32,976 bases of DNA, from the NCBI GenBank assembly GCA_014729705.1, contig WJJK01000099.1:1-32976 (forward strand), given 5' to 3'. The notes below the pieces were generated by a model. It made no database searches and was not told where the DNA came from. It saw only the letters and a list, made by a program, of their open reading frames with translations. The DNA is from Candidatus Altarchaeales archaeon. Its GTDB lineage: Archaea; Altiarchaeota; Altiarchaeia; IMC4; SCGC-AAA252-I15. This document shows, in pieces, positions 6,289-32,976 of this stretch. Positions within the stretch are counted from its first letter, which is position 1, and each line of letters starts with the position of its first letter. The position numbers were made by a program, and so were the translations under genes.

Positions 6289-7614
6289 ATGATTCAAAAC
6301 ATTCGTCTTATCAACCCAAACATGACACGCGTGAATGGGTATTTTTATAGCTTTGACGAAGAAACAGATACAATGATTCAAAAGACGGATGATGGGACTC
6401 TGGCTTTTGCTTATCCTCTGGATACTCCAATCAGTCAAGAGGTTGTGGATATGGAGTACGATGGGGAGAGCTGGTGGTCTATGGAGCACATTTCCGGGAC
6501 GCCTGGGGACGGTTTTGTTATCCGGAGATGGGTTATTGAAAACTTCGTTATGGTTTTGCAGCAGTCCTTTACCTTTGCTACGGACAGTAATGACACATTT
6601 CAATCCAGTGCTTTTACTATAGAAAAGTACGAAGGGACCATTCAATCAAACGGTCAAGAGAATAACAACCAGCTGACAGTCAGTTACAGTGATGATGTAT
6701 TTGACCAAATAACTCCCGGAACTAATCTATTCTTAGGTCCTAGTACTAAGACATCACCCACTGATTTCTCTGGGCAGACTTTGCGGGTTACTGCCAGCAC
6801 AACAAATCCCGCGACTAAGACTATCACATTAACTTCGGATAAGACTGTGGGATTTTCTGCAGGAGACAAGGTGGTTTTCAGTAAGCACATTTGGGTGTTC
6901 AACCAAAACCACCTTAAGCAGTTAGACACCGGTTCCTTGTACAAAATGAACGTATTAGATGGTAATCTACTATCGAGAACTAAGGGCGGAGTGTTCAAGG
7001 ACATCAATGCGGCGGGTTTTGTGGATTTGATCCAGGCAAATCCTCCCAGTGGTGTTTTTACCGGAGCCTCTTTGACGCAATTCAACAAACCCAGTTATTT
7101 GATCTTTGTCAGAACCAACAATCTTCTTTTTATTGATGTGTTGGATTCCCAGCTAACTACGGAACTTTCGGCTATTCAGAATAACTTAAGCCCTGATACA
7201 ACCGAAGTATACGAGGTTTTTGATTTAGGTTTAGAAGGCGAAACTATTTTTCGCTTGCAGCAAAAGTTCAACATCAATGGGACTGAAACTACAGAGAGCA
7301 CCTATAACTACCAGCTGGCTACCTTTAAGCCTTTCCCAACTGCCATCGCCCTAACGGCAGATCCAGCTATCTTGCCTGCGGATTCCGGAAACTCCAACTC
7401 TACTATCACTGCTACGGTAACCGATCAGTATGCCTTGCCTTTTGTTCAGAGTCCGGCTGCTACTATTACTTTCCAGACCTCCGGCGGAGGAAGTGGTTCT
7501 GGTCTTACTAACTCTGGTCCTATTTCTCTGGACAGCGACGGGCAAGCCACCACAACCTACATTACAGGAGATGCCGCTGGGTTGGTTACCATTTCTGCGG
7601 AAGTTACTATTTAG
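6289..7614 (+). CDS. Modular tail-fibre/adhesin-like protein, paralogue A, with a C-terminal Big_1-like Ig domain
   Basis: TTAGGAG SD. N-terminus YFYSFDEETDTMIQKTDDGTLAFAYPL...; C-terminus ALTADPAILPADSGNSNSTITATVTDQYALPF...DGQATTTYITGDAAGLVTISAEVTI. Confidence 0.8.
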   Translation: MIQNIRLINPNMTRVNGYFYSFDEETDTMIQKTDDGTLAFAYPLDTPISQEVVDMEYDGESWWSMEHISGTPGDGFVIRRWVIENFVMVLQQSFTFATDSNDTFQSSAFTIEKYEGTIQSNGQENNNQLTVSYSDDVFDQITPGTNLFLGPSTKTSPTDFSGQTLRVTASTTNPATKTITLTSDKTVGFSAGDKVVFSKHIWVFNQNHLKQLDTGSLYKMNVLDGNLLSRTKGGVFKDINAAGFVDLIQANPPSGVFTGASLTQFNKPSYLIFVRTNNLLFIDVLDSQLTTELSAIQNNLSPDTTEVYEVFDLGLEGETIFRLQQKFNINGTETTESTYNYQLATFKPFPTAIALTADPAILPADSGNSNSTITATVTDQYALPFVQSPAATITFQTSGGGSGSGLTNSGPISLDSDGQATTTYITGDAAGLVTISAEVTI

Positions 7615-7628
7615 GGAGAGGGCTGCTG

Positions 7629-8957
7629 ATGCCTGTTAATATCCAGATTAACGATGGTAACTTTTCTTTTGGGCCAGAAAGTGGTTTCTTCTATACTATA
7701 AGCAGCAGCTTGGATTCTTTGGTTCAGGTAGAGGCGGATGGTACCGTTGTTAATACCTTTCCTATTTCTCGTTCTCAGTTACGGAACCCGGTTATCGAGC
7801 TTCACTACGACGGTACTTTCTTCTGGACTTTGGAAGAACTACCCTCTGATCTGGGAATGGTGATTAAAAAATGGAGGCTTTTCCCTTTCAAGACAGCTGC
7901 TTTTCCCAGCGTGTCTCCGAGTGAGTTACGTTGGCAAGATGAACTAACCCTTTTGAATAAGCCGAACATTATTTACCAAGGAGAGGCTTTCGCTATAGAG
8001 CATTACCACCGAACTTTTGATAGTTCTGAAACCCAGGGATCCACCTCTATACGATTAGATGATGCTTCTAAAGTAAGTCCTGGCACCACACTTTATCTGG
8101 GACCCAGTAGTTTTGGGGGATTTGAGGGAAACGAAGAGAAGATTGTAGTTCAATCTGTAAACCCAACTACCGGTGATGTGTCTTTTGTTAAACAAGGCGG
8201 TCTGGAAAATAGCTACACCAGTGGTGATCCTATAGATTTCCATACAGGTATTTGGTTTTTCAATGATCACTCTTTCTCAGGACAGTCTGATAATCTGGGA
8301 GTTTTGAGTAGGTTTGCTTATCCCAGCAAAAATTTGGTCAGGTCGGACTCGGGAGCTAAATACTCCAAAGTGACAGCTGCTGATTTTGATGGTAGCAAAA
8401 TCTCTTTCATCCGTGGTCCCATGCTGATGACTATCAACATTGATACCGTGTCTTTCGACTTGGAGTCCTCTCTCGAGGCCAACCTCATAGAGAATAATAA
8501 ATACGAGCTGATTAAGGTTTACGATCTGATTTCTGATTTGGATAATAACCTCTTTTACAAACTTCAGCAGAGGGAGACCAGCGAGGATTTAGGTACGGGG
8601 TCTCTTACTACCGATGATTTTTCTCCTCAGTTCAACTTCCAAACTGAAACAGATCTTCCATTTGTAAATTCTGTCTCTCTGCGTTTTGAGCCTTCTCGCT
8701 TTGCCATAACTGGCTCTTCTCCCAGGACAAGGGGTTTCACTGTATTTGCAGAGCTTAGAGATCAGTTCAATCTTCCGGTATTAGGAGAGACTGTTCAGTT
8801 TTCTGCATCTCAAAGTGATCTTGGGGACTCTGGTATTCCAGGTACGATGAATCCTGCTGTAGATTTTACTAATGTTTCAGGTACCGCCCGGTCTGTCTAC
8901 ACTCCAAGTTCCACAACCAATGATTTTCTCGTTGACATTGAGGCGGATGTTCTGTAG
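7629..8957 (+). CDS. Modular tail-fibre/adhesin-like protein, paralogue B of the preceding ORF, with a C-terminal Big_1-like domain
   Basis: Same length and order as 6289-7614: GFFYTISSSLDSLVQVEADGTVVNTFPI..., VSPGTTLYLGPS, IWFFNDHS, YELIKVYDLISD...LQQRE, then an Ig-like C-terminus. Confidence 0.8.
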   Translation: MPVNIQINDGNFSFGPESGFFYTISSSLDSLVQVEADGTVVNTFPISRSQLRNPVIELHYDGTFFWTLEELPSDLGMVIKKWRLFPFKTAAFPSVSPSELRWQDELTLLNKPNIIYQGEAFAIEHYHRTFDSSETQGSTSIRLDDASKVSPGTTLYLGPSSFGGFEGNEEKIVVQSVNPTTGDVSFVKQGGLENSYTSGDPIDFHTGIWFFNDHSFSGQSDNLGVLSRFAYPSKNLVRSDSGAKYSKVTAADFDGSKISFIRGPMLMTINIDTVSFDLESSLEANLIENNKYELIKVYDLISDLDNNLFYKLQQRETSEDLGTGSLTTDDFSPQFNFQTETDLPFVNSVSLRFEPSRFAITGSSPRTRGFTVFAELRDQFNLPVLGETVQFSASQSDLGDSGIPGTMNPAVDFTNVSGTARSVYTPSSTTNDFLVDIEADVL

Positions 8958-8968
8958 GGAGGCAGCCA

Positions 8969-9445
8969 ATGGGATCACAAATAATAACAGCCCTGGCAGA
9001 ACAAAAGGGTAACCAGACCACCAACCCTGATGGTTTTGATCCAGATACCAGCCGCCCCATCGAACAGTTGCCTGTGCCTTTCGATACCGACGCGAGTAGA
9101 TCTAAACCAGTGGAGCAGAGATCCACGTTGGCAACTGCCAAGCAGGGAGGGGAGGAGTTTTCTAACCCCATAGAACAGCAGGGTATAGTAGTTCATGCTT
9201 CTACATTTCCAGTTCCCCAGGAAGATCACGTTCTTCAGCAGTTTAAAACTGTTTCTGCGGGACATCCCGATTCAGGCATCTCTCCTCCTCCAGAAGGACC
9301 TATCGAGCAGTTAAGATTTACCACTGCGGACCTCACAGATGCAGAAGTGGATTCAGTTCCTATTCAGCAGTTTCTTTTACAGACGGCGGGTTCCGACGTC
9401 TCAAGACCTGTTGAGCAAAAGCCTAAAATAGAAAACTCTATTCAG
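8969..9445 (+). repeat. Degenerate tandem protein-level repeat (P[IV][EQ]Q / xQQF)
   Basis: At least seven occurrences of a [PV][IVL][EQ]Q core in about 150 aa. Confidence 0.6.
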
Positions 9446-10318
9446 GTTACCCAGTTCGATTTCGTAGATTTGATCTTCCCTCCATGTAACAGTATAAAAA
9501 ATCCTGTAAATACTAACATTCTTTGGAGAATACGCGATTTCGGGTTTCCTTTTGATACCACATCCATTATCTTTACAGTAGAAGGAGTGCAAGTCCAGGA
9601 TAGGGATGAGTTCACCGTTACTTCTTTACCTAATGGTTTGCAGATTTTCTATGACCCCCCTCAGGATTTCGCCCATGACAAGGACATCTTCACTTCCATA
9701 ACTATTAGTGACACAGCGGATCCTCCCAATACCTTCTTTTTGCGCTGCATTTGGAGAACCGTTCCTGACACTCGCCCTCCTTTTTTCCAAAACATATCTC
9801 CAGCCTGCAACTCTACGGATGTCAGCACTACAGCTACATTGGAGTTTGATGTTTTGGATTTCGGAGAAGGGGTAGATCCTGATAGTATTTCTATCTCTAT
9901 TGAGGGTGTAACGGTTTGCAGTGGTGTCAGTCTCGATGCTATAAGTCAACAAGCATTTACGACCATTTCTGGATCACAAGTTGGGGCTCAAGCTACTGGG
10001 TATCATGTTACCTACGAGCACCCCAAAGATCCGTGGAGATTTGGTTCTGAAGTGACTATCGCTTTACAGGCCACTGACCTTTCTCCTGAAAGAAACTCCG
10101 CTCTCTTCGTTTGTTGTTTTGGCACGGAAGGAAGTAACGAACCTATATTTGTTTCTCCCGAACCAGAGCCTTGCGATACCTTTGTGGATAACCAAACAGG
10201 GTTGTCTTTTGAGGTTTATGGAGTAGAACACGGAGTAGACATTTCCACCCTCGAAGTAAGGGTGGACAATAAACTGCGTAAAGTTTTTGTGCGCCCAAGA
10301 CTATTAAGGACGGATTAA
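8969..10318 (+). CDS. Fibre-like protein: N-terminal degenerate P[IV]EQ repeats followed by Ig-like domains, the last one incomplete
   Basis: Repeats RPIEQLPV, KPVEQRST, NPIEQQGI, HVLQQFKT, GPIEQLRF, VPIQQFLL, RPVEQKPK; then TRPPFFQNISPACNSTDVSTTATLEFDVLDFGEGVDPDSISISIEGV... Ig-like. Confidence 0.8.
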   Translation: MGSQIITALAEQKGNQTTNPDGFDPDTSRPIEQLPVPFDTDASRSKPVEQRSTLATAKQGGEEFSNPIEQQGIVVHASTFPVPQEDHVLQQFKTVSAGHPDSGISPPPEGPIEQLRFTTADLTDAEVDSVPIQQFLLQTAGSDVSRPVEQKPKIENSIQVTQFDFVDLIFPPCNSIKNPVNTNILWRIRDFGFPFDTTSIIFTVEGVQVQDRDEFTVTSLPNGLQIFYDPPQDFAHDKDIFTSITISDTADPPNTFFLRCIWRTVPDTRPPFFQNISPACNSTDVSTTATLEFDVLDFGEGVDPDSISISIEGVTVCSGVSLDAISQQAFTTISGSQVGAQATGYHVTYEHPKDPWRFGSEVTIALQATDLSPERNSALFVCCFGTEGSNEPIFVSPEPEPCDTFVDNQTGLSFEVYGVEHGVDISTLEVRVDNKLRKVFVRPRLLRTD

Positions 10319-10325
10319 GGAGGAG
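10317..10325 (+). promoter_or_regulatory. Shine-Dalgarno AAGGAGGAG overlapping the previous stop, upstream of the GTG at 10332
   Basis: Sequence attAAGGAGGAGttcctcGTG. Confidence 0.75.
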
Positions 10326-10331
10326 TTCCTC

Positions 10332-12698
10332 GTGAACGTTCAGCAGGGTAAGTTAGGATCTACAGATACTACAAAGGACATGGAGGATTTCTACGATGAC
10401 GCTGTAGCGAGCTCCGTTTCTGATGTAGACCGGGCTTTACATAACGGAACTCAGTTCGTAAGGCTGGTATTGCAGCGTGCTCAGCCAGTCCAGGCTGTTC
10501 GCGGTGGAAGTAGTTTAAGTATAGGCACCGGAACCGAAGATGAAAATCTCATCGACGGCAGTTTCACTTCTAATGCTACCCCCAGCCAAGAATCCATCAT
10601 CATAGGTTTTGCAGAAAATCAGCTCATCGCAACTACCCAGATAAAGATTTACTCTGTTGATCCTTTGGACACCTCTGCTTCAAACTGGGAAATCGCTACC
10701 AGCTTGGATGGTAGTGACTCCCAGTTCAATTTGGCTAACTTCCAGGCTACTGGGGTTAGCATTCAAGAGGATCCTGTAGTTCTTGATAGTCAGTCCCAGT
10801 TCCGTTACACCATTACTTTCACTGCTCCTTCTATCGGAGGTCTTCGTTACTGGAGAATCAAGAGAACCAGTGCGCCTCTATTTTCCAACACCACTGAAGT
10901 TGAGATTTTGGAACCTCTTATTCCCACCATCTCCTACTTTGATACAGACGGCTCTTTTGCCAGCTCTTTCGAGTTCGAAAGAACCAACATCTTGGACGCG
11001 TGTTATGATACCCCCAACTCTAAGTTTTATACTATTCGTTTCAATACTGACAATGTAGGTTCTTCTAACATAAACCTGGGAGATGATTTCAGTGATGCTG
11101 AGGCAGGGTCAGCTTCCGGTGGAAATAACTTCAACCCTGCAAGATGGGAAGAAAGTACTTCCAATCCGCAGTTTTTACGTTCAAGTGAGAAGTTAGTTCA
11201 TAACGTTGCGACCGGTAACGGTCAGTTAGAAACTACCTATACTTTGAGCGGGGATTTTAGTGCCGAAATAAACGCTAATCCTATCAATCTTACTTCAGAT
11301 CAGATGTGGTTTGTTTTGCGAGCACTGGATAGCAATAACAATACCATTATGAGTGAGGGTGTGGGTTATGACTCGACCCCCACCGTGACCGGTGTGTGGT
11401 TTAACTCCTACATTCAGAATGTCGTTGACTCTACAGCGGCCTGTGAGTTAAGGGAAGTTAGGCCTCTATACCACAATGCCCAAATAGGTACCGATCAGTT
11501 CGTTTTGAACTATAACGGGTCGGCTTGGACAGTGTCCGGAAGTCTTACTGGGGCTCTAACCAACGCACAAACAGGTGAGCTCTATGATGAATCTATAGAA
11601 TCCGATACACCTTTCGAGTTCCTCATTTCTTGTACTGCCACCCCCACATTAGGTGAGCAGTTTACCTTTGATTTAGTTACCACAAGCGGTCATAAATCTC
11701 CAACGGAGTCAGGGATTATAGGGGTAGGAAGAACTTCCACTACCTGGAGTGGTTCTCAGGGATTAGTCACTGGAGAAACTGTCGGGACAGGCGCTGTAAG
11801 CATTGAGTTGTTTGGTAACACAAATGGTTCTATCAATCTGGAAGCAGACGATTATGTAGTTGTAGGATCAGGAGCTTTCCCTCAGATTGCTGTTTTCACC
11901 GTAGAGGCCACTGACAATGAGGGTGATGTTTCGGGAACCCCTCTGATTGAGTCTTTTGATGTAATCGGAGACCCGAGCCTTACTTACAACGACTTTTTGG
12001 ACGGAAGGGTTCAGATCGCTTGTACTTCTTCTGGTTCTGGCGGTGGTTTTGTTTATTTGAAGATAAACAATGAACTCTACAAGTATGCAAATAACATTTC
12101 TCTGGGAACTGAAGATGGTAGCAGTGCTATTCAGTCCAGTACTGCCCAGATCCCTAAGGATGGTACCTCCAGTTTCAACTGGACCCATGAGTCTACGATC
12201 AATGGTCCTCCTTTCCTTACCTACTTAGAGTACGACGAGACCTTGGATCTGGTAAACATTAAGACTATTAATAAAGACACCTTGTTGGATACCACTGATT
12301 CCAAGCAAGCGCTTCTGAACATCTCTGATTATGATGATAACCGTTATAAGGTATTCTTTGATCAGAATGACTTTGATACTCTTTACTATGTAGATAATAG
12401 CACCAACTTGCGGGCTTTCAATCTGGATGATAGGATCTCTGCTTTCATGGCAGTAAATGCTGACGACACGACTCTTCCAGCGGGAACGGCGCAAGCCACC
12501 TTGGTTAATGCGGATGTAATCAATGCCTGGGGAGAAGCCCTGGACGGCAAAGAAGTTACTTTCCAGGTTACCGCGGGGGATGGTGCTGTTACTCCGTCCA
12601 CTGACACGACTATCTCAGGAGGAAGGGCCCAAAGCACTTTCACTGTGGGAAGTACCGTTGGCGTCTCCACCGTGACCGCCACTGTGACCGAAACATAA
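10332..12698 (+). CDS. Large fibre/adhesin-like protein: discoidin-like domain, paralogous N-terminal module and C-terminal Big_1-like domain
   Basis: 788 aa. ENLIDGSFTSNATPSQESIIIGFAENQLIATTQIKIYSVDP...ASNWEIATSLDGSDSQF...YWRIKRTS is F5/8C-like; SYFDTDGSFASSFEF...; C-terminus MAVNADDTTLPAGTAQATLVNADVINAWGEALDGKEVTFQVTAGDG.... Confidence 0.8.
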   Translation: MNVQQGKLGSTDTTKDMEDFYDDAVASSVSDVDRALHNGTQFVRLVLQRAQPVQAVRGGSSLSIGTGTEDENLIDGSFTSNATPSQESIIIGFAENQLIATTQIKIYSVDPLDTSASNWEIATSLDGSDSQFNLANFQATGVSIQEDPVVLDSQSQFRYTITFTAPSIGGLRYWRIKRTSAPLFSNTTEVEILEPLIPTISYFDTDGSFASSFEFERTNILDACYDTPNSKFYTIRFNTDNVGSSNINLGDDFSDAEAGSASGGNNFNPARWEESTSNPQFLRSSEKLVHNVATGNGQLETTYTLSGDFSAEINANPINLTSDQMWFVLRALDSNNNTIMSEGVGYDSTPTVTGVWFNSYIQNVVDSTAACELREVRPLYHNAQIGTDQFVLNYNGSAWTVSGSLTGALTNAQTGELYDESIESDTPFEFLISCTATPTLGEQFTFDLVTTSGHKSPTESGIIGVGRTSTTWSGSQGLVTGETVGTGAVSIELFGNTNGSINLEADDYVVVGSGAFPQIAVFTVEATDNEGDVSGTPLIESFDVIGDPSLTYNDFLDGRVQIACTSSGSGGGFVYLKINNELYKYANNISLGTEDGSSAIQSSTAQIPKDGTSSFNWTHESTINGPPFLTYLEYDETLDLVNIKTINKDTLLDTTDSKQALLNISDYDDNRYKVFFDQNDFDTLYYVDNSTNLRAFNLDDRISAFMAVNADDTTLPAGTAQATLVNADVINAWGEALDGKEVTFQVTAGDGAVTPSTDTTISGGRAQSTFTVGSTVGVSTVTATVTET

Positions 12699-12710
12699 AG
12701 GTGAGCATGA

Positions 12711-15329
12711 GTGGTTACTATAGTACAGTCCACAGCAATAGTAGGAGCTTCTGGGATAGAAAACTCCAGAGGTATGGTTCAGAGCGGAGGACCTACTGCT
12801 GCTAACACTGTAAGCCAAATCGAAGGTTTTTCAGTTACCACCCACGTAGATTCCTTTGGGGGTTTTAGTCAAACTAACAATGTGCGTCAGTTTGAAGGTG
12901 TTGATGGTTCCACAACTGTTCCCACCCCCGACGTAGTAGAAACTACAGCCACGGCTAAGTTTGTAGTTTTCCCCGCAAGTCTATCACGCTCCAAGTTTTT
13001 CCAGGCGGTTATAGGGACCACCGAGACCTTTGAACGGGACTTTGATAGGTCACCTTTTTTCTTTAGTCCTCACGAAACTGACCCCAATACTATACGAGAC
13101 ATCAGTGTAGCGCAACAGTTCCTGGTGTTTACAAGTACTACTATTCGTAGTTTTGAATCTTTACGAGCGACCCCCCGTGACGTTCCTATTATCAGTGTCA
13201 AAGGAAGCAAAGTAGATGATGAGGCTTTTGCTGCTACTGACATTCTAATCAACGGTAGTTTTGAGGCAGGTAATTTTGCTGGTTGGGAAACTGAAACAGG
13301 CACTGGCGGGACGGTAGAAGTTAGAACTGATTCTAACGTTGGCGGTGGTATTGTTGGAGGCTTAACCCCAGATGATGGTACCTACTGGGCTTACCTGAGT
13401 AAAAACGATTCCGGTGGGGACTCGGCCTACATAAAACAAAACATAGTTTTGCCGCAGAAGTACGAATCTACCTTAATAAGTAACCTCTCTTGGAATGCTG
13501 TTTTTGACGCTATAGCTCCTCAAAGTCGAAACCAACTAAGCGTAGTCTTCTATAACGACGAAGTTCCAGTATTTCATTTACGTTATAAGTTTGGAGTTCA
13601 AGGAACACCGACAGCGCCGGCAGATCTACCAGTTCTGACTCCCATTGATGTAGGAGTTTCTGCTACTTCTAATGAGATCCTTAACTACTCCCGCGTATTT
13701 TCCCAGGATAGTAGGCTTGCCGATTTCGACTTCAACGAGGTAGAAGTATGGTGGATAACCGATTCCAGTATTGGTACTGATACCGATACTCTTGTTGATG
13801 CATTCCAGCTAACTCTTAACATCCCCCCGGATCATTTTTTATCTACCAGCAGTTTCGCACATGTTCTAACTAACCATCCAACTGCTTCGGGTCTTTCTTT
13901 TACTATTTCTGGCTCTGATGATATCAATCAGATAGACCAAACAGGTCCTTTCTTTGACGAGACAGTTCCTCTATCTGGAACTCGTTTTAATCCGACTACT
14001 GGTTTTGTTTCTTTCCATGTCAAAGACGCAGCCTCTGATTTGGATCAGGGAAATGTAGATGTTTGGATAGATGGCTTACAGGTGGTTGATGCTGGTAGTA
14101 CTATTACCGGATCTGTCTGGCCTTCTGCCACTAAACAAGTTATTTCCGACCGAGACATTCAGTATGAGTTTACCCGCTTTCAAGATTTCACGCCGCAGTC
14201 TACCGTAGTAGTAAGTGGTGAGTTGACCGATTTAGCTGACCCCGTCAGTAATCAAACCATCACGGATTACTCTTTTACTATTTTGGGATCTGGTTCTTTG
14301 GATGCTACTATCTCGGGGGCTCCTGATGGTACTCCGCCTACTATTATCCCTACTGACCCGGAAGATCTCGATACTCAGATTTCTCCGAACACCAATCTTC
14401 TCTGGAGCATAACAGACGACGCTTCTGGGGTAGATCCAGCCTCCGTTAAGTTGCTGATAAATGGGGCTACGAAGATAGAGAATGATGTCGCTTCTGCTGG
14501 CTCTTTTAGTAGAACTGCTAACAGTCAGCGCGGTTTTGATTACGTTTACAACCCGTTAGGGGCTTTTACTTTCGGAGAGACTGTAACCGGCACCATAGAA
14601 GCTTCGGACAGAGACGGGAACTCTTCTTCTCTGGATTATGAGTTTACTATTACTCCGGATGATACCTTGGAGATCAAGGATTTCTTCTTGGCGGAAAATC
14701 AATCTACCCTCATTACCTCTGGAACAGAGATTTCCGTTTGCGTGGAAGACCTTACTCATGGAGTTAATGTGAGCGGGACAGAGTTCTTGATAAATGGAAC
14801 CGTTCCCTCAGGCCTCGTAGTAACTACCAGCGGTGCAGGACCAGATAAAGTTACTTATTCGGTTCCAGCCGCAGGTATAGTTGACTTCCGCTCAGATATT
14901 AACGTATTTGTACACGCAGAGAATAACTTCCCTGGCGCTTTTCCGGTTGTCAAAGAAGAGCTTTTCGTGCTGCGCCCGGGGTATGATGTCAACTGGTGGA
15001 ACAGAAGTACAGACACCAGCGAGGGGGCAGAGGAAGTATTCCCTTACATAACCAGCATTCAAGTTCTGGCTGAAGTGAAAAACTTCGCCAAGAACTTTAA
15101 TGATGCCAGTTTGTTTTATAGATTCCTCACCGAGAATCAGCAGCACGCTGATCTCGGTGCGTCGATTGTATCCAACATAAAAACGGCAGATCTACCTGCC
15201 AGTGTAAGTTCACTAAACACAATCTTTGAGTACGGCAAGGAAATAGTTTTGGAGCTTGAAGTTGCGGATCTTGAAGGAAATCAACTCAGCTTCACTCATA
15301 CTTTTACTATTGAACCGAAGCCAGAATAA
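12711..15329 (+). CDS. Large fibre-like protein: N-terminal xQxE/xRQF repeats, a 'NGSFEAGxFxGW' carbohydrate-binding-like module and several Ig-like domains
   Basis: 872 aa, GTG start. VSQIEGFSVTTHVDSFGGFSQTNNVRQFEGV; DILINGSFEAGNFAGWETETGTGG; PPTIIPTDPEDLDTQISPNTNLLWSITDDASGVDPASVKLLINGAT. Confidence 0.8.
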   Translation: MVTIVQSTAIVGASGIENSRGMVQSGGPTAANTVSQIEGFSVTTHVDSFGGFSQTNNVRQFEGVDGSTTVPTPDVVETTATAKFVVFPASLSRSKFFQAVIGTTETFERDFDRSPFFFSPHETDPNTIRDISVAQQFLVFTSTTIRSFESLRATPRDVPIISVKGSKVDDEAFAATDILINGSFEAGNFAGWETETGTGGTVEVRTDSNVGGGIVGGLTPDDGTYWAYLSKNDSGGDSAYIKQNIVLPQKYESTLISNLSWNAVFDAIAPQSRNQLSVVFYNDEVPVFHLRYKFGVQGTPTAPADLPVLTPIDVGVSATSNEILNYSRVFSQDSRLADFDFNEVEVWWITDSSIGTDTDTLVDAFQLTLNIPPDHFLSTSSFAHVLTNHPTASGLSFTISGSDDINQIDQTGPFFDETVPLSGTRFNPTTGFVSFHVKDAASDLDQGNVDVWIDGLQVVDAGSTITGSVWPSATKQVISDRDIQYEFTRFQDFTPQSTVVVSGELTDLADPVSNQTITDYSFTILGSGSLDATISGAPDGTPPTIIPTDPEDLDTQISPNTNLLWSITDDASGVDPASVKLLINGATKIENDVASAGSFSRTANSQRGFDYVYNPLGAFTFGETVTGTIEASDRDGNSSSLDYEFTITPDDTLEIKDFFLAENQSTLITSGTEISVCVEDLTHGVNVSGTEFLINGTVPSGLVVTTSGAGPDKVTYSVPAAGIVDFRSDINVFVHAENNFPGAFPVVKEELFVLRPGYDVNWWNRSTDTSEGAEEVFPYITSIQVLAEVKNFAKNFNDASLFYRFLTENQQHADLGASIVSNIKTADLPASVSSLNTIFEYGKEIVLELEVADLEGNQLSFTHTFTIEPKPE

Positions 15330-15332
15330 GTT

Positions 15333-15340
15333 AAGGAGGA
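15333..15340 (+). promoter_or_regulatory. Shine-Dalgarno AAGGAGGA upstream of the ATG at 15347
   Basis: Sequence ttAAGGAGGAaacagcATG. Confidence 0.8.
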
Positions 15341-15346
15341 AACAGC

Positions 15347-16963: not shown

Positions 16964-16974
16964 TAGGAGATTTC

Positions 16975-17322
16975 ATGCGTATCGGTAGTAGAGATATTAG
17001 AATGCACAGGGGGTGGATTGTTCTTTACAATGATGGAACTGTAATCTGTGAGGACGACATGCCCTGGGTAAAGGTTCCAGATAAGAAGAACATCCGGCGA
17101 ATGATTTTGAAGTGGGACGATAGATTTTGGAGTTTGGACGATAAAGATCATTACACCGTGCCAAAGAAAAGAGGATACATCGACGTAAATATGGGAGGCT
17201 CTTCCCAGGGTATTCATTCTCGGACCATTGGTTATTATGACATGGAGGAAAAGGCCAAAGTTATCATTCGAGTAGAAGAAGCTACTGGTAGGATGCAGTA
17301 CGATATAGAACCATTTGAGTAG
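16975..17322 (+). CDS. Small hypothetical protein of a 'GWxVxYxDGTxxxxDDxPWxxVP' type often seen near phage tail genes
   Basis: 115 aa; MHRGWIVLYNDGTVICEDDMPWVKVPDKKNIRRMILKWDDRFW. SD TAGGAG. Confidence 0.7.
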   Translation: MRIGSRDIRMHRGWIVLYNDGTVICEDDMPWVKVPDKKNIRRMILKWDDRFWSLDDKDHYTVPKKRGYIDVNMGGSSQGIHSRTIGYYDMEEKAKVIIRVEEATGRMQYDIEPFE

Positions 17323-17341
17323 GGTAAAGGAGAGGTAGTAA

Positions 17342-23878: not shown

Positions 23879-23889
23879 GAGAGTTTTTG

Positions 23890-24276
23890 ATGCCTTATTT
23901 GCAGTATGTTTTTTGCGACAAGTGCAAAAATGCGCGTATGGACATTGATGAGGAGGCTACTCTTCGGTCTTATATAGAAGACGGTCGTAGATCTAAGGAT
24001 GTATTCATAAATCCTGCAACTTTGGTTTGGGATTATCTGGTTTATAGATGTACTATTTGTGGACGTTCATCTAAATACAAGTTTAGGGATATAGAGAAAA
24101 AAGTTAGAGAGCATTTTAGCTCCTTAGGAGAAGAGTATAGAGATTATTTTGAGAACTTAGATCGGGTTGATTTTAAGCGGTTAGATAGATCTCTTCCCCG
24201 TCCTTATTCTTCGAAGTCAAGAAAGAAAACGGGAGAGAGAATCAAGAGAACTTACGAGAGCAGAGAAGAAAAGTAA
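23890..24276 (+). CDS. Small Zn-ribbon-like protein with a basic C-terminus
   Basis: FCDKCKNARMDI...YRCTICGRSSKYKFR (two CxxC) and a Lys/Arg-rich tail SKSRKKTGERIKRTYESREEK. ATG at 23890 preferred to the TTG at 23887; TAGGAGAG SD. Confidence 0.75.
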   Translation: MPYLQYVFCDKCKNARMDIDEEATLRSYIEDGRRSKDVFINPATLVWDYLVYRCTICGRSSKYKFRDIEKKVREHFSSLGEEYRDYFENLDRVDFKRLDRSLPRPYSSKSRKKTGERIKRTYESREEK

Positions 24277-27200
24277 TGGTATATTCCATTTTGACGGAAG
24301 CCAGGGTTAGGCCCTCCGTTGCCCCTAAACAGCCAGACGTCACTGACTACCAGGTGGTTTGGGACGTTAACCAAGACCTGAAGGGCTGGACTACGTTCGT
24401 CAACATGGACATAGTAGGCTCCTGGGGAGGTTTCCTATTTGGAACTAAGAGGACGGAAAGCGGCGGTTTCATCGGACCTTCTTCTGATTTTCCTGCGGTA
24501 GATGCCTTAGTAAACGATCGTATCTTTTTCCGTATGAAGTACGATAAGCACCCCAAAAGCCAGGGAGCTACTACTTTTGGAAAGATACAGTGGACTACGG
24601 AGGCAGATCCGATTTTCGGTGATGATAAAAGTATTACCTTCGATCTCGCCGCCGATGGCAAGTGGAACTTCTATGAGATCAACATGGGCGAAGTTCCCAG
24701 TTGGGTAGGGAACGTAAATAGAGTCCGCTTTTTCCCTTGCGAGGACGGATTCTTTAATGATGAGTTCTTCCTGAGCTTTTTTGAAATAGGCACCAATGCT
24801 TTTGATTTCTCCTTCGAGGAAGCAGATGCTGGTTCTTCCGGTTTTGCCCAGGCAGCGGTTCCTTTAAATGGAGCAGTCACTATAGAAAAGGGCGTCAACG
24901 ATAAACTTATTGTAAATATTGATGATTATGGTGACGTTCAAATAACTCTTACTCCGCAGACTTCTCAGCCTCTTCTTATAGCCAGAGATATTGCCCTTCA
25001 GTTGGGTAAAGTAGGTATAGGGGGGTATACGCGGGCAGATGCTTTTATGACCGAAGACTCCCTTCTCCGGATAGAGTCAGGAACTAGGGCTTCTGATTCC
25101 AGCGTTTCTGTTAAAAGTGGTCCCAATTCTGCGGCTGAGACTTTAGGTTTTACGGATGCTGTGGGTTTCTTTATAGGCACCACAGGAACTGGTTCCGAAC
25201 CTGACTCTCAATACGAACCCCTATCTGCTTACAGACCTACTACTTTAGAGATACTTTCTCTGTTTGATAATGATGAGGATTTGCCCGCTTTTAGTCTGGA
25301 TCCACAGCAGCCCATAGTTCAGGCAGGTAACGTTAACTTCGCTGTAGTAAATCAGCGTCTAACTCAAGACATAGTGTTGGAGGGTAGAGACACCGGCCTT
25401 CAGGGATTTAGTATTACTCAGGACGGTTCCCTGGATGGTGCTTCTAAAACCTTTATAGATTTGAACCATCCCTTCGCTGATGAGGGTAAAGTAGACAAGA
25501 TATTCATGAATGGTGTTCCTAATAGGGACGGCTCAAGTAAGTGGAAGATCTTTCGCCCTCGGTTGGATGGAACTTTAACTCTTGTGTCTGAGGGAGCTAT
25601 CGCTGAGAAGACTTTTACCGATGATCCCAATGGCGGTCTTGTAAGCAGCCCTGTCCCAGATGTTTTTACAGCTGATCTGTCTACATCCAACGTAAAGGTT
25701 CGCCGCGGTGATCTGTTGGGTATTTTTAACGTAGGGTTGCATGCGGGGGCTGGAAATACAATCAAGCCGGATGCTCTTTATTACGAGATAGATGGAGATG
25801 CTACTGGAGATGTGACACCTCCCCCTCCTTCTGGTGCTGGAGAGACGGGTCTGGCTATTTACGCCGAGGGCGCTGCAACGAAGAATAGGGCAGTTATTGA
25901 CATAGATCTTCGCCGGAGATTAAACATTGACCGAGTTAGAGTCAAAGGTATAGAAGATGCAAGAGATTTGGAATATAATCTGGGTATAGCTGGATCTGCG
26001 GAATATAATGCCGACATTAGCGGAGAACACACTATTTGTTACCAAGTAACCCCCACTGTGAGGGATTGCTTCACCAGACAAAACCAAGCTTTTAACATCC
26101 AAGCACTGAACGACGATGTTTTAACTGCGGAGAATGGAGACATAGGTTTTGGAGATGGGGGAGTAGGTGGTATAGGTGGTGCCGATGTCACAGGTTCTAC
26201 CTACTTTTATGTAAACGGAGACGGGGAGTTTCTCGGGTCCTTTGAGTTTGAGAATCAGGGGCCTGAACGTTTTAACTTCTTCCGAGATCCTTTAGGCATA
26301 GAATGCTTCTTTAGCAGTCAGACCCCCAGGCTGGACAAGCCTGTGGGTAAGGTTGTTATGTATTTCAAGGATAAGAAGAACCAAAGAGCATGGCAGCTGG
26401 AGTACTTGGTCGGAAGAGGAGGAAAAGGAGGAAACGGAAGTAAGCCTGGCTTCTCCTTGATCCCTGCTGATACTTTTCAGTCTGTTAGAGTTGATGATAA
26501 GCTCATAGAGCCCTTCGCCGGTATACCTTTGAAAGAAGATCATGTTTCTCTTTTGGTAGACAACCCAGTCATCTTGGATGTTGTCGCCGCCGATGGCACC
26601 AGAAACCCCCAACAAGGTGTTGACTTTGAAGAAAATGTTGGTGAGCTTGGAGGGGTTAACTTCGGAGATCAGGCGGTTTTTCTTGAGTTCCAATGGAATC
26701 GCTTTGAATGGTCCTTTGAGACAATAAGGACTCCTGCTTTAAGATGGTACAGTGATTTCCACTGGAGTACCAAGATTTCTGAGATGCAGGTTTTTGCCGT
26801 GTCGGAGTCCAACGAATCCCTCGGAGACAATGTACAGGTTCTTTTCTCTGCAGATGGTCAAACTTTTACCACTGCCGACTTATCTAACGCCAACGAAAAA
26901 GAGGCTGAGTATAAAATAGGCAACTCTCCTCAGTTTATGCGTCTGATAGTCCGCCCGGTTTTGAAGACTTCTTTGAATGATGTTCAGATAGATTTTGAAG
27001 AAGATCAGGTTTGTTTTGGGGATGAAGGACGCATTACTAAATCCACTTCCCTTAAAGAGGCCCGAGTTGGGTCTGTTGGGGCCAGCACGCCACTTAAGAT
27101 TACAAACAACACTGGGCAGACTGCGGATCTAATACTGGATGTTCCGGAAGACATAGAAACTGCCCGACAGCTTCTGTACTTCAATCAGCTGAATAGCCAG

Positions 27201-30200
27201 GATAACATACAATCTCCACAGGTAGGCCCGCCAGGAAGAGTAGATTTTAATCCGGGCAAAGTTCTAAAGGAACAGTCCAGCGTGACAGTTAACTCCAAAG
27301 CTTACGGTTTGCTCAGCCTTGTGAGCGGTACCGAGAGTTTCCGCTCTGATGATCTCGCGATAAACGGAGGCTTTGAGACTGGTACTCTGGATGGTTGGAA
27401 TGTTGAAATAACTAAATCAGGTACTTTAGATTTTCAAATACCTAAAGTGGATAACCTTTCTGATTCTGCTACGTCTTCGATTCAAACTGGGGAGTTTTCC
27501 TTCGGTGTAAGTCAACACTCATCTGTTCCGGCCCAGGACTCGCAGTTTGCAGGTGTGGCTTTCAAGATTGGACAAACTCACGATCTTTCTGAGTTTGCGT
27601 CAGGTATTGATCAAGGATTCTCTACATTTGATTTTGGCTTTGATTATGCTGCCTATGGAACTGATGCTAATCCTACTATTCGAGTTTATGGTTCCCCAAC
27701 TCTTTCTGGGGTTTTAGAGCCCCCTGGAACTGTAGTAAGTTCGGGGTATGGTAGCAACCTGCTATCGGAACTTGTTGCTACTAAATCCAGCAGTGTCGGA
27801 AACCCTAACTCCGGTAATGCCGGATACGAGTCTACTATTAACGTGAAAGAGGGTACCCGTTTTATTAGGACAGAAATAGATGTTGATATTCCCTCGGAAG
27901 AGACTTCTTTGGGTAGTTCGGGTCTTATTTTTCACATGGACGATTACAGTGCTTTTGTGAACACCCCAGCTTTGACCACTGCCAAATGGTATAAGAGTTA
28001 TTTCACTGGCCAGGGAGATTTTGGGGACGCTTCTTTTGTGCCGGTTACTTCAGGCTCTTTCGTTGCGGTTACCGGCAGCCATCACTGGTACCAGCCAGCA
28101 AGTCAAAGCGCTGATGCCACCCCCGAGCCCGGACAATCCCAGGGTTTCGATTTTGCGTTTACTCAGGATAGGAATAAGGGAGTTCAATCTTTCTCCAGAA
28201 TGCGCCCTACCGATCCTGGTATTTTGGGAGCAAAATGGGTGGGGGAGAAGAAGATCGCAGGGATCCGTGTAGCCCACTCGGACAACACCGGCCCCTTGTT
28301 TGCATCCTCTCACTATCCTCGTTTCTGGCAAATAGAAGTTCTTAAGACCAGGACGGAGCTGGGAGGACAAGAGCCAGACATCAATAACAACTCTCACTTT
28401 AAAGTTGTTCGCCAAATAAAAACTCTCATTAAAGACGACGGCCCTTCTGAGCTCAACATCAATTCCAATGAGTTCGGAGGTTCCAGTTCCAAGATCACAA
28501 CTTGGATCTTTGATGAGCCGGTCTCTACAGAAGGCATTCGGTTGGTATTTACCCTAAACTGCGACTTGTTTGAGCGCCAGAGTTTTTCGGATTTCTCCTC
28601 CTTTAACGCTTTCACAGGTTGCCCGGATAACACCCTTTTCGGTACTGACTTCGTTACTAATAAGGGAATTTATGTTAGTATGATTATACCCCTGGAATCC
28701 CTGGGAAGGACCAGTTTGCCTGTAGACGATGTTCCCGACAGAGAACTTTCCGACGGTATAAACTCGGAAGGAGGAGATGGAGGAACCATCTATGCTGCGG
28801 TGGATTTGGGGCGACATTTTGATGTTGAGACGAATTCTGATTTGTTTGAGTTGGTCGCGGATACCATTAGGCAAACCTCTTGGACTACCAACGCTCTCTT
28901 CAGTGGGGACGATACAGATGATCCCAATCAAGTTACCTGGGCAGGTAGTTCAAGTTTTGCCCGTTGGATAAGATTTGATGCACCGGCTACCCCTGGCGGG
29001 GAGTTTGAGCAGGAGGTTAGATTTTTCCAGGGAGGTCTAAGTGCGGGACAGGGTGTGCCCTATGAGATAGAAAATCTTCCTCAAGGAATTCTTACTCAGG
29101 CCCGTATTTACCCAAGGCTCCAGACTGCCAGCATACCTTTGGAAGGGCCCAATCATTTCTGGAAAGATTTGGGTAACATTTTAACAGATAATCGCACAAC
29201 CACCTTTATAAACTACTCAGATTATCCTATTATCTGTTTAGACCTTGGAAGAGATTATCTCCTAAAACAGACCTCCTCTGCTATTGTACAACGTAGGGAA
29301 CTGTTCACTCCAGGTGCCACTTCTAGCACGGATGACAAAAACTACTGGCAAACCAATAACGACGATGCTTTTGCCTATTCCTCCAAGTCCTTTAGGCAAG
29401 TTAGTGACCCCTCCCGTGTTAAGTATACCAGTTTTGGTGATGCTATTCCTACCAATACTGTGCGTTGGGTTGCGGTTAGGGGTATTGGAAATCTTCTTCA
29501 AGATGATATTTCCGGGGCAAAAGAGTACAACTTTGAAACCCTGGGAGGTATTCTCTCTGGGGTGAATTTTGCCCCAGAAAATCCTGAAGTGCTTACGGAA
29601 AATTCTAACTGGTTTACAACTAATACTGCTGCCCTGCGGGATATTTCTACCTTTGATACTTCCCTGGGTAGACCTTTCAGTATACAAGAGAATGTAGATT
29701 ATGGTTCCAATGGACCATCCAACCAAAGAGGAACTTTTGGAGACCCTTACTTTGTGTGGGATGGTGTTTTCGACATTGCGGATGATGACTTCTGGGGTAT
29801 TGCTTTGCGGGACCCTAATACAGGGCTCAACATAGGAGGAAATGAGTTTCCTCATTATGTGTGGCGAGTGTTTAGGGATCCTTACCGAGGAGATTCGATA
29901 ACTCGCACTATAAAAGCAGTTAAGATCCTTGGATACAACGGAGATTTTTATCCCAAAGATTTTGAAATCCAAAGTTTGGACAGCGCTGATGCTGATCCAA
30001 CCTCCGATTTGAGCTGGACTACTATCGATGGGGGTAACTTTACAGGAATAAATACTTATAACCAGGGTCTGGGTTTTACATTTATTTTACCGGAGCCTTT
30101 AGAGGTTAACGGTATCCGCATCCTGGTAAATGACAGCGAGTATGTGGACGACACGGTTACCTCGCAAGTAAATGAACTTGGACAGTTCAATCAATCCCCT

Positions 30201-32153
30201 ATTGATAGAGGCCCACAAACCAGGATCGTCTCTGTTGTAGTTTACGAGGAAGTAGTAGAGGAGGCCAATCTTGTAGGCACTGTGGAAACAGACCATGCTC
30301 AGGGTTCTTCTATTAGTTCTACTACCCAGGTGCCAGAGCGAGGGCCTGCTAACATGATAGATGACAACTCTCGCACTTTTTTCCAGTCTACAGGTTTTCA
30401 AGAAACCATAACTCTGAGCCTGCCCTTTGCCAGAACTATCAATCGCTTTGAGTGGGAGATGGATCAAAACTATGCAGAGCAGTTTGACCTGGACCCTATA
30501 AGTTCCAATGCTCCCGGTACCTTCCGTCTCAAGTCTAACGAAAACATAGTGTTGGAGACTGTATTAGATATAAGCAACTTTTCTGGACTTACCTTCAGCG
30601 GAACATTAGATCCTCCGGTTACTGCTGACACCTTCGTTTTTGAGGTGGATGAGCCCCAGGGTGTTGATACTGATGCTTCTTCTATAATCATTCACTCTCT
30701 GAGGTTGATAGAAGAAACACAACAAATTACCCCCTTGGTTACTGTCGAGGATACTTTCGATAGGAGACCTGATGGGACCAATCTCCGTAGTACTAAAATA
30801 AACTATGCCAAAGATGCATCTGCCATTGCCAATGTTTATCTGGACGGAGTTGATGCTGGAAACGATGCGCTCTTTTCGGAGAGAGACTTTTTCACTTTCT
30901 GGTTGAAAATAAACGATGTTTCCTTGTTGGATACTAACTTCGGTTCTTTCCGTCTGGGCAATGACAGAAACACCTACTATTCTTGGAGGATTCCTGGACT
31001 AAACTTGAAATCAGGGTGGAACGAAGTAAAGCTCCAGTTTAGTCAGGCCTTTGATAATACTCCAATAGAGTTCCAGTCTGGACCTAACTTCGACCCCGCT
31101 ACCGGGGAGAGCCGGGTAGATTTCGTTACGGCGCCCCAGGTCATATCTACCTCTGTTGATGGTGTTTTCTCACAGAGGGTTGAAGAAGCACCGGGCATTC
31201 GTTTTTTTGAGATGGAGTTTAGGGGTTCTGGTGGCTCCCAGGAGTTGGAAATAGTAGTAGATGACATGAGATTTATTCGTAATAGATTTGAGGATAAATG
31301 TCGCTTTACCCCTTCTCTTTACCTTAACAATAGTGAAACTTTTTCCATTTTCCTTGAAGGCTTGGATCTTTCTGTAGGAACTGTAGAGTTTTGGTTACAG
31401 CCTGATTGGGGGCAGACTGCCCGTATAGACAGATTGCGGGACATTCTGCCGAGTATCTTCAAAATAACGCGTCCCGACGGCAAGTTTTTAAGCTTTTTCT
31501 ATCGTCCCAGTGAAGGATTTGTAACGGTTATCAACGCCGGAGACGAAGTTCTTCAGTTTAAGTCGGATGTTAGTAAGTATTTGTTCCAACCCTTTGACAA
31601 TATTCACGTAGCTCTTACCTGGGATGTGTTTGGGAGAATGCCTCCTACTGGAGCCACTTTACGTATGTGGATTAATGGCCGGGTAGTTTTTGCTACTAAT
31701 AGAACTTGGGACGGCTTACGAGAAGGTGGCGCTACAGTTATGTTTGGCGGGGAAGTAGGGCAGGCAGTGGCTGCTACTCCCCACAACGAAACGGCTATTA
31801 CTTTTACTCCGGTGCCTACTTTGCCCCAGACCAATACGGCTTCTTCCTGGGCACTTTTAGAAAACATAAAGATTTATAACTACGCAAAAACTGACTTTTC
31901 CGACATCAATCGGAGAGACATAAATAGAACTCAGCTTGTAAAACCTTCTGACATGCTTCAGATTTCTCTGGACAATGTGAACTTCTACTCTTCTGGCTCG
32001 GACCAACTTCCGCTGGTTGTAGAGAAAGTTCCCTCGGATGTTACAAAGACTGTGTACATACGTAGTAACATCCCAAAGGACCTTACAGGTGACGAAAATC
32101 GGGATGCCTCTCTACTGGTTAGATGGAAAACCCCACTGGTCCAGTGTGATTAG
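24276..32153 (+). CDS. Giant (2625 aa) modular adhesin/tail-fibre protein with multiple carbohydrate-binding-like, discoidin-like and LamG-like domains
   Basis: Single uninterrupted ORF, TAATG start. N-terminus WDVNQDLKGWTTF...DLAADGKWNFYEINMGEVPSWVGNVNRVRFFPCE; AINGGFETGTLDGW; several discoidin-like regions; C-terminus GTVEFWLQPDWG...NIHVALTWDVFG...LRMWINGRVVF (LamG/ConA-like); end QISLDNVNFYSS...VRWKTPLVQCD. Confidence 0.85.
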   Translation: MVYSILTEARVRPSVAPKQPDVTDYQVVWDVNQDLKGWTTFVNMDIVGSWGGFLFGTKRTESGGFIGPSSDFPAVDALVNDRIFFRMKYDKHPKSQGATTFGKIQWTTEADPIFGDDKSITFDLAADGKWNFYEINMGEVPSWVGNVNRVRFFPCEDGFFNDEFFLSFFEIGTNAFDFSFEEADAGSSGFAQAAVPLNGAVTIEKGVNDKLIVNIDDYGDVQITLTPQTSQPLLIARDIALQLGKVGIGGYTRADAFMTEDSLLRIESGTRASDSSVSVKSGPNSAAETLGFTDAVGFFIGTTGTGSEPDSQYEPLSAYRPTTLEILSLFDNDEDLPAFSLDPQQPIVQAGNVNFAVVNQRLTQDIVLEGRDTGLQGFSITQDGSLDGASKTFIDLNHPFADEGKVDKIFMNGVPNRDGSSKWKIFRPRLDGTLTLVSEGAIAEKTFTDDPNGGLVSSPVPDVFTADLSTSNVKVRRGDLLGIFNVGLHAGAGNTIKPDALYYEIDGDATGDVTPPPPSGAGETGLAIYAEGAATKNRAVIDIDLRRRLNIDRVRVKGIEDARDLEYNLGIAGSAEYNADISGEHTICYQVTPTVRDCFTRQNQAFNIQALNDDVLTAENGDIGFGDGGVGGIGGADVTGSTYFYVNGDGEFLGSFEFENQGPERFNFFRDPLGIECFFSSQTPRLDKPVGKVVMYFKDKKNQRAWQLEYLVGRGGKGGNGSKPGFSLIPADTFQSVRVDDKLIEPFAGIPLKEDHVSLLVDNPVILDVVAADGTRNPQQGVDFEENVGELGGVNFGDQAVFLEFQWNRFEWSFETIRTPALRWYSDFHWSTKISEMQVFAVSESNESLGDNVQVLFSADGQTFTTADLSNANEKEAEYKIGNSPQFMRLIVRPVLKTSLNDVQIDFEEDQVCFGDEGRITKSTSLKEARVGSVGASTPLKITNNTGQTADLILDVPEDIETARQLLYFNQLNSQDNIQSPQVGPPGRVDFNPGKVLKEQSSVTVNSKAYGLLSLVSGTESFRSDDLAINGGFETGTLDGWNVEITKSGTLDFQIPKVDNLSDSATSSIQTGEFSFGVSQHSSVPAQDSQFAGVAFKIGQTHDLSEFASGIDQGFSTFDFGFDYAAYGTDANPTIRVYGSPTLSGVLEPPGTVVSSGYGSNLLSELVATKSSSVGNPNSGNAGYESTINVKEGTRFIRTEIDVDIPSEETSLGSSGLIFHMDDYSAFVNTPALTTAKWYKSYFTGQGDFGDASFVPVTSGSFVAVTGSHHWYQPASQSADATPEPGQSQGFDFAFTQDRNKGVQSFSRMRPTDPGILGAKWVGEKKIAGIRVAHSDNTGPLFASSHYPRFWQIEVLKTRTELGGQEPDINNNSHFKVVRQIKTLIKDDGPSELNINSNEFGGSSSKITTWIFDEPVSTEGIRLVFTLNCDLFERQSFSDFSSFNAFTGCPDNTLFGTDFVTNKGIYVSMIIPLESLGRTSLPVDDVPDRELSDGINSEGGDGGTIYAAVDLGRHFDVETNSDLFELVADTIRQTSWTTNALFSGDDTDDPNQVTWAGSSSFARWIRFDAPATPGGEFEQEVRFFQGGLSAGQGVPYEIENLPQGILTQARIYPRLQTASIPLEGPNHFWKDLGNILTDNRTTTFINYSDYPIICLDLGRDYLLKQTSSAIVQRRELFTPGATSSTDDKNYWQTNNDDAFAYSSKSFRQVSDPSRVKYTSFGDAIPTNTVRWVAVRGIGNLLQDDISGAKEYNFETLGGILSGVNFAPENPEVLTENSNWFTTNTAALRDISTFDTSLGRPFSIQENVDYGSNGPSNQRGTFGDPYFVWDGVFDIADDDFWGIALRDPNTGLNIGGNEFPHYVWRVFRDPYRGDSITRTIKAVKILGYNGDFYPKDFEIQSLDSADADPTSDLSWTTIDGGNFTGINTYNQGLGFTFILPEPLEVNGIRILVNDSEYVDDTVTSQVNELGQFNQSPIDRGPQTRIVSVVVYEEVVEEANLVGTVETDHAQGSSISSTTQVPERGPANMIDDNSRTFFQSTGFQETITLSLPFARTINRFEWEMDQNYAEQFDLDPISSNAPGTFRLKSNENIVLETVLDISNFSGLTFSGTLDPPVTADTFVFEVDEPQGVDTDASSIIIHSLRLIEETQQITPLVTVEDTFDRRPDGTNLRSTKINYAKDASAIANVYLDGVDAGNDALFSERDFFTFWLKINDVSLLDTNFGSFRLGNDRNTYYSWRIPGLNLKSGWNEVKLQFSQAFDNTPIEFQSGPNFDPATGESRVDFVTAPQVISTSVDGVFSQRVEEAPGIRFFEMEFRGSGGSQELEIVVDDMRFIRNRFEDKCRFTPSLYLNNSETFSIFLEGLDLSVGTVEFWLQPDWGQTARIDRLRDILPSIFKITRPDGKFLSFFYRPSEGFVTVINAGDEVLQFKSDVSKYLFQPFDNIHVALTWDVFGRMPPTGATLRMWINGRVVFATNRTWDGLREGGATVMFGGEVGQAVAATPHNETAITFTPVPTLPQTNTASSWALLENIKIYNYAKTDFSDINRRDINRTQLVKPSDMLQISLDNVNFYSSGSDQLPLVVEKVPSDVTKTVYIRSNIPKDLTGDENRDASLLVRWKTPLVQCD

Positions 32154-32161
32154 GAACGATA

Positions 32162-32976
32162 ATGGTTGAAAGAAACATGATCCGTGAAGGGTTTATTCGT
32201 AATACGCCTGTATCAACGGGTAACCCTACCTTTTCAGGAAGTCAAGTTGCTAATGAGGCACAACTTTCTGCTTTGGCCGATGAGAATACCTCGGTGGCGG
32301 CTATCACTGTTTCTGCTACAGAAAACATAGATCTAACTGCAGACTTGGGCGCGCGCTGGAAGTTAGGGCGCCTGGAGTTGTACACAGACGAGTCTACCAT
32401 AGGTAATGTTACCATGGAGATCAGCGACAATAATGTTGACTTTCATGGAGTAACTCTTACCGGTTCTCCGAACATGTACGTGGGCGACATACCAGATTCC
32501 ACGGTTTCGGGTGCCCCAAGGTATATTAGATATAGACATGCTGCTTCTACGGCTACGGATGTTTTTGAGTGGAAGGCAATTAATGATGATACCATCGTAG
32601 ACTTTGGCGTTGACGGTAGCCAAACTCAGGCACAAATAGATGATGCTCCAGTGGGTCGACCTTCCGATAAAGTTACAGAGTTGAAACTTTTCAATCGATA
32701 CGGTAAGTCTGGAACCGCCTCTGTGTTTGTCGATAACACGGGAGCCGCAGCAGATGAACTTATAGAGGTAGCAACCACAACCACTGGTCCCTGGTTTGGT
32801 AGAGTTATCTCCGATACCGTGCAGCCGGATAGAGTTCCTTTTACTTCTGGTACCCTGGATAATACCCAGGTTGTTGGCGCAAGTGGTTATTTTGTAGATT
32901 ATGTTAATAGTTCAAAAGACAGAGGATGGCAGGGGGATAATGGTGCTTCCGCCTCCATTGTTGCCAATGGGGTTGA
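32162..32976 (+). CDS. Discoidin (F5/8C)-like structural protein, 3' end outside the window
   Basis: ATG at 32162 after TAGGAA, open to the window end. MVERNMIREGFIRNTPVSTGNPTF...ADLGARWKLGRLELYTDESTIGNVTMEISDNNVDFHGVTLTG...APRYIRYRHAASTATDVFEW. Not in the supplied ORF track because it has no stop. Confidence 0.75.
   Translation, partial: MVERNMIREGFIRNTPVSTGNPTFSGSQVANEAQLSALADENTSVAAITVSATENIDLTADLGARWKLGRLELYTDESTIGNVTMEISDNNVDFHGVTLTGSPNMYVGDIPDSTVSGAPRYIRYRHAASTATDVFEWKAINDDTIVDFGVDGSQTQAQIDDAPVGRPSDKVTELKLFNRYGKSGTASVFVDNTGAAADELIEVATTTTGPWFGRVISDTVQPDRVPFTSGTLDNTQVVGASGYFVDYVNSSKDRGWQGDNGASASIVANGV

Follow-up and report, generated by a model that had tools for sequence, protein, structure and literature searches.

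The locus studied here raises the question of what a row of giant modular proteins does in a genome bin labeled archaeal, and to which organism it belongs. The window, that is the whole stretch analyzed, is the entire 32,976-nucleotide contig WJJK01000099.1 from the metagenome-assembled genome (MAG) of Candidatus Altarchaeales archaeon (GCA_014729705.1; 2.3 Mb, 405 contigs). Its positions 6289 to 32976 hold 11 tandem open reading frames (ORFs), w13 to w23, of 441, 442, 449, 788, 872, 538, 115, 2178, 129, 2625, and 271+ aa in order, with 26,576 of the 26,688 bases coding, all on the plus strand. This interval probably corresponds to most of the distal-tail gene module (tail tip and fibers) of a jumbo tailed phage with a genome of about 300 kb. 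A contiguous cassette of large adhesin genes had been proposed for it from the letters alone; coding density and the single strand agree with this, while the edges are arbitrary, as w11 and w12 (4733 to 6280) belong to the same module library and the gene block begins at the tape measure gene upstream of the window and runs beyond its end.

The window is viral despite the archaeal label of its MAG. Its first 141 bases are identical to the last 141 bases of contig C314, which carries the C-terminal part of the tape measure followed by w1, and the reading frame of w1 extends upstream into C314 across this overlap. Its last 141 bases are the reverse-complemented end of contig C387, which holds the remainder of w23 and more tail genes. 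Exact shared ends of 141 bp are the pattern expected of assembly-graph overlaps, and assembly chimeras are unlikely because four other contigs show the same gene order. The genes for terminase, portal, and major capsid protein lie with the N-terminal part of the tape measure on the co-binned contig C373, which has no end in common with C314 and was assigned to the same virus because of its genes, its binning with the window, and its synteny with relatives. The gene order in the virus would be capsid genes, giant tape measure, w1 to w12, w13 to w23, and a variable adhesin locus. The proposal of a viral adhesion or tail module was borne out, with the genes directly 3' of the tape measure in a genome encoding terminase, portal, and major capsid protein, and the locus is a tail module of a tailed phage (Caudoviricetes).

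Relatives were obtained by searching IMG/VR with w22, which gave two independent viruses, G061 (297,725 bp; overlapped by contig G062 of the same sample, with 100% identity in the parts compared) and G063 (95,333 bp), and with the capsid protein, which gave 37 loci in a close group at 86 to 100% and a second group at 66 to 70%. The capsid-positive contigs G064 (295,848 bp) and G067 (79,563 bp) carry orthologs of nearly all window ORFs in the same order, adjoining tape measures of 4,651 and 4,169 aa, respectively. Across the five genomes (window virus, G061, G063, G064, and G067) w1 to w23 are collinear without rearrangement, and the sole module-scale change is the N terminus of w17, about 200 aa longer in three genomes (872 aa in the window versus 1063 to 1110 aa). 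Orthologs of w22 in the four viral contigs showed 46 to 60% identity. From the distant group, G068 (IMGVR_UViG_3300017963_000217) has recognizable relatives of w1, w3, w4, w6, w8 to w11, and w13/w14 downstream of a 7,006-aa tape measure. A capsid relative was also present in a WOR-3 bacterial MAG, itself perhaps misbinned.

Other searches returned little. Pfam and PHROG scans of the full-length window proteins gave almost no matches; tblastn against INPHARED with w20, w22, and the G061 ortholog of w3 gave none; none were found with w20 in IMG/VR or with w22 in GTDB genomes; and PDB profile searches with whole w3, w20, and w22 gave no useful match. No description of the lineage was found in the literature searched. 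Identity with the "moraphages," which have tail sheaths, was rejected.

The tape measure gene of G061 (L019:365-14029) matched Pfam PhageMin_Tail (2.2e-25) and phrog_4211 (7.5e-80), and PHROG matches were also found for the terminase and major head protein. No tail sheath (PF04984) was detected in G061, G063, or the archaeal MAG at E 0.1, where a diverged sheath is possible, consistent with a long, probably noncontractile tail. The motif DFDGD occurred inside the tape measure of all six viruses examined for it, including that of the window's bin (C373, 42805 to 49587), G061, G064 (250757 to 264712), G067 (38784 to 51293), and G068 (64770 to 85790), and the tape measures of four relatives resembled the separate single-chain RNA polymerase of G061 (E 9e-13 to 1e-5). 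By motif and similarity, these proteins are predicted tape-measure-fused virion RNA polymerases of the type described in the Thermus phage P23-45 (and P74-26), which has a long tail, a tape measure of 5,002 aa that is fused to an RNA polymerase, and, in P23-45, a nonvirion RNA polymerase as well (PMC10770324). The likeness extends to the relatives and C373, with their DFDGD tape measures, and to G061 with its additional single-chain enzyme. The genome of P23-45 is, however, much smaller than the ~300 kb found here, the adhesion module of the present viruses is far larger, and their tape measure and terminase matches fall with Bacillus, SPbeta-like, and Lactococcus phages. The 7,006-aa ORF of G068, in tape measure position with tape measure similarity at aa 3809 to 4569, also exceeds the tape measure of P23-45 in length.

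Module re-use, the core of the original prediction, was analyzed by comparing the ORFs all against all with hhalign, using per-ORF alignments of five-genome orthologs and reversed profiles as decoys; the best of 210 reversed-profile comparisons scored 26.3. The paralogs w13 (6289 to 7614) and w14 (7629 to 8957) matched along their entire length (score 302), and their C-terminal Big_1-type Ig domains matched the C terminus of w16 (10332 to 12698; aa 699 to 788) with scores of 44 and 41, respectively. GVD-type Ig-like repeats linked w15 (8969 to 10318), where about 2.5 of them follow a variable N terminus, to w17 (12711 to 15329; aa 409 to 757) with a score of 112, and internal tandem repeats scored 92 in w15 and 89 in w17. 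The NGxFExGxxxGW (NGxFE) module was common to w17 (aa 175 to 372) and the modular tail protein w22 (24276 to 32153; aa 1024 to 1228; score 58). The IN module was common to w11 (4733 to 5674; aa ~66 to 190), w18 (15347 to 16963; aa 43 to 155, with a conserved C terminus), and w22 (aa 199 to 294), scoring 59 between w11 and w18 and 53 between w18 and w22. A discoidin module (aa 1996 to 2149), a LamG-like module (aa 2344 to 2555), and further discoidin-like regions complete w22, which gave module matches of 50 and 42 with w23 (32162 to 32976), the first 271 aa of a protein of ~1200 aa whose rest is in C387. The N terminus of w12 (5681 to 6280) is related to w11 (36), and its C-terminal half resembles, by eye, a truncated GVD-type repeat.

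A first pass with three genomes had left the sharing by w16 and w23 unseparated from decoys, and the five-genome profiles separated both. The small conserved proteins w19 (16975 to 17322; 54 to 82% identity in four relatives) and w21 (23887 to 24276; 45 to 52% in four relatives) and the 2178-aa tail protein w20 had no module in common with other ORFs above the decoys. Because the combinations differ from protein to protein and the scores exceed the decoys, the re-use is real; it holds for w11 to w18, w22, and w23 and does not extend to w19 to w21.

The family names given to the modules fared unevenly. Big_1 (PF02369) matched eight of the nine C-terminal copies from w13, w14, and w16 (best 6e-8; the w16 copy of the window, at 4.9e-7, slightly under the curated cutoff), Invasin_D3 (PF09134) matched six of the nine (best 1.3e-9), and the Big_1 profile found the PDB entries 5ldy (0.0016) and 1cwv (0.0047), an Ig group 1 protein and invasin. 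For w22 aa 1996 to 2149, the G061 ortholog matched F5/8C (PF00754) at 2.9e-5, under the curated cutoff, and a five-sequence profile found solely discoidin/CBM32-like PDB entries (fucosidase, APC10, glucanase, AlyQ, and EndoD; best 0.009); these matches, weak singly and consistent together, support a predicted F5/8 type C (discoidin) domain. The LamG label (PF13385) of w22 aa 2344 to 2555 is less firmly supported, as the G063 ortholog was barely above the cutoff (3.2e-6), the window copy was weak (0.038), and the profile had no match in PDB. GVD repeats gave a weak match to Big_5 (best 0.0034). Two labels were not upheld. When 33 module sequences were compared with Pfam at E 0.1, no flagellin IN family was matched and neither the IN nor the NGxFE module matched any named family, though the module called "hook-IN" does recur in w11, w18, and w22; and the "discoidin" region of w16 (aa 57 to 192), an N-terminal beta-rich module, had no F5/8C match in the window, G061, or G063 copies, its low-confidence model giving weak fold matches at best, such as CBM35 at E 0.2. 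The NGxFE module matched no carbohydrate-binding module (CBM) family and resembles CBMs by its motif alone; the lone CBM family matched was CBM_AftD, on the discoidin region.

The modules differed in their rates of change. With boundaries drawn by eye and three genomes compared, mean pairwise identity was 76% for Big_1, 71% for IN, 66% for GVD, 64% for LamG, 55% for discoidin-like, and 42% for NGxFE modules, so that relatives differ more in their NGxFE and discoidin-like modules than in the Ig and IN ones. Such a pattern would be expected if Ig and IN modules were spacers and joints and the others faced a changing host surface. Within w16, aa 57 to 192 diverged fast (32 to 58% identity) and the Big_1 domain was kept at 88 to 94%.

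Far larger changes were found just 3' of the window at the D1 gene, which encodes 318 aa in the window virus (C387) and 1,056 aa in G061 (L016:14783-17953). At the same locus, G063 (21299 to 42318; L026 to L028) has five paralogs of 2,025, 1,982, 838, 1,056, and 1,083 aa with rearranged segments in common, one gene of G061 corresponding to five whose segments are shuffled and which contain internal duplications. On C373 (27319 to 32844; L054), the gene next to the one for the major capsid protein encodes 1,841 aa in which D-family segments are mixed with those of a LamG protein whose gene lies elsewhere in G061. Domain shuffling was not seen within the interval, the N-terminal length of w17 aside, and the movement of modules between genes suggested earlier was found outside it, at the D1 locus and beside the capsid gene. 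No relation between D modules and window modules was detectable, so there are two module libraries, one conserved in the window and one volatile outside. The fast-evolving parts are the binding-like modules, the w17 N terminus, and above all the D1 locus, around a collinear scaffold.

Under the favored reading of a distal-tail module, w1 to w12 would form the tail-tip core and w13 to w23 the large adhesion proteins. Ig-type domains (Big_1 and GVD) and IN modules would act as stiff spacers and joints. The beta-sandwich-like modules (discoidin, LamG, and NGxFE) of w16, w17, w22, and w23 would make many weak contacts with bacterial surface sugars and so keep the virion attached until the tail hub can engage and the DNA can be injected; the most specific contacts may be made by proteins of the D locus. 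Receptor binding, sugar binding, and the virion location of each protein are predictions from sequence. Several observations weigh against this reading: the window was binned together with archaeal 16S rRNA genes; w20 has no recognizable module; w22, being conserved, may be scaffold rather than receptor binding; and the structural check proposed earlier left the folds unconfirmed, with AlphaFold models of w22 aa 1430 to 2625 and of w16 at a mean pLDDT of 36 and 27, most likely because alignment depth was too low, and no match below E 0.001 in a fold search with the better model.

The strongest competitor, a minority view in our estimate, is that w13 to w23 are mainly tail-tip architecture (collar, baseplate, and fiber shafts) and receptors are bound by the variable D1-locus proteins. 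It agrees with the conservation and collinearity of w1 to w23 in five genomes versus a D1 locus that ranges from one 318-aa gene to five paralogs (838 to 2025 aa), and with the D-type/LamG-type 1841-aa protein next to the capsid gene in the window virus; yet the discoidin, LamG-like, and NGxFE modules of w17 and w22 belong to, or look like, classes that as a rule bind sugars, and two of them, NGxFE and discoidin-like, diverge faster than the scaffold. Virion-surface decorations, such as whiskers or fibers on tail or head that fasten the phage to particles, mucus, or biofilm instead of a specific receptor, are rather improbable, since genes directly downstream of the tape measure classically encode the tail tip and the window genes occupy this site. 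Ig-type and sugar-binding modules do occur on nonreceptor virion proteins, as in 936 phages (PMC6669499) and gut phages (PMC13370021). A cellular operon for archaeal surface proteins, the refuting case named in the original prediction, could be suggested by the MAG label, the 16S rRNA genes of the bin, and the Big_1/discoidin modules, but the exact overlap with the tape measure contig, the collinear viral contigs, the terminase, portal, and capsid genes, and the lack of any w20 relative among 60 related genomes leave it almost no credence, and the gene context rules it out.

It is about an even bet that these viruses form a lineage not yet described, of sheathless jumbo phages of ~300 kb whose tape measures reach 7,006 aa and are fused to RNA polymerases and whose adhesion system has two tiers. 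The tiers would be the conserved array of giant tail-tip proteins in the window and the adhesin locus that rapidly grows and shrinks and exchanges modules with the capsid-adjacent gene.

The host is probably bacterial and not the archaeon of the bin, judging from relatives. G061 carries about 28 tRNA genes (L011, L024, and L025) covering most amino acids, among them a tRNA-Tyr whose encoded CCA and long variable arm are bacterial features and an initiator tRNA with the C1:A72 mismatch of bacteria. It also encodes a family A DNA polymerase and a CCA-adding enzyme of bacterial type, and an archaeal host was rejected on these grounds. No tRNA genes were found in the window virus's own contig set, and a look for a CRISPR link to the bin found no Cas1 in the archaeal MAG.

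Modular virion proteins with sugar-binding and Ig-type domains are already well known in phages, and those of the window are unusually large. Siphophages of the lactococcal 936 group carry carbohydrate-binding modules in neck, tail tube, and Dit proteins (PMC6669499), a comparable case of small binding "bricks" recurring in several proteins of the virion, whereas the window proteins reach 2,625 aa with many modules each and their binding is predicted. Discoidin and Laminin-G3 domains were surveyed in jumbo-phage virion proteins (PMC7824862); of these two lectin-type folds, discoidin is predicted here from sequence and LamG less firmly, and the window differs in that one conserved cluster also contains Big_1 and GVD Ig repeats and the unassigned IN and NGxFE modules. 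In gut crAss-like phages and Flandersviridae relatives, modular adhesins with Ig-like domains were shown to bind epithelium (PMC13370021); the likeness is one of architecture, and nothing here points to epithelium binding. The analysis assigns giant proteins that almost lack Pfam/PHROG annotation to a defined structure of the virion, in a lineage of 37 capsid-positive IMG/VR loci, sets a conserved tail architecture apart from a hypervariable adhesin locus, the place to seek host-range evolution, and would extend tape-measure-fused RNA polymerases to jumbo phages.

The remaining window genes, also on the plus strand, are less conspicuous. The w1 segment (2 to 355) is the C terminus of a 619- to 735-aa protein that follows the tape measure, with 82 to 85% identity to tape-measure-adjacent orthologs in G061 and G063, and is a putative distal tail or tail-hub protein. 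A putative tail-tip protein, so named from its position, is encoded by w3 (630 to 1538), which is syntenic in G061, G063, G064, and G067 (70 to 77% identity) and ends in the conserved sequence HDHSSLGQGGPAFGVYASE. Small conserved tail-module proteins are encoded by w4 to w10 (1584 to 4715; 49 to 83% identity, order kept in four relatives). The w20 gene (17342 to 23878) takes up about a quarter of the interval, keeps its position in relatives with 55 to 59% identity within the three closest genomes and 44 to 45% in two others, and possibly encodes a structural hub.

Several minor observations concern the wider genomes. Contig C284 of the archaeal MAG (30602 to 32197) has a Baseplate_J match within a 1,131-aa frame, possibly from another phage or a contractile system. 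The terminase gene on C373 (13553 to 16624; L053) contains an in-frame intein-like insert of ~390 aa that G061 lacks, and the ribonucleotide reductase of G061 also carries an intein. G061, otherwise bacterial-looking, encodes a protein that matches the actin-like Volactin family over its full length (L022:6994-8016; 8.6e-66).

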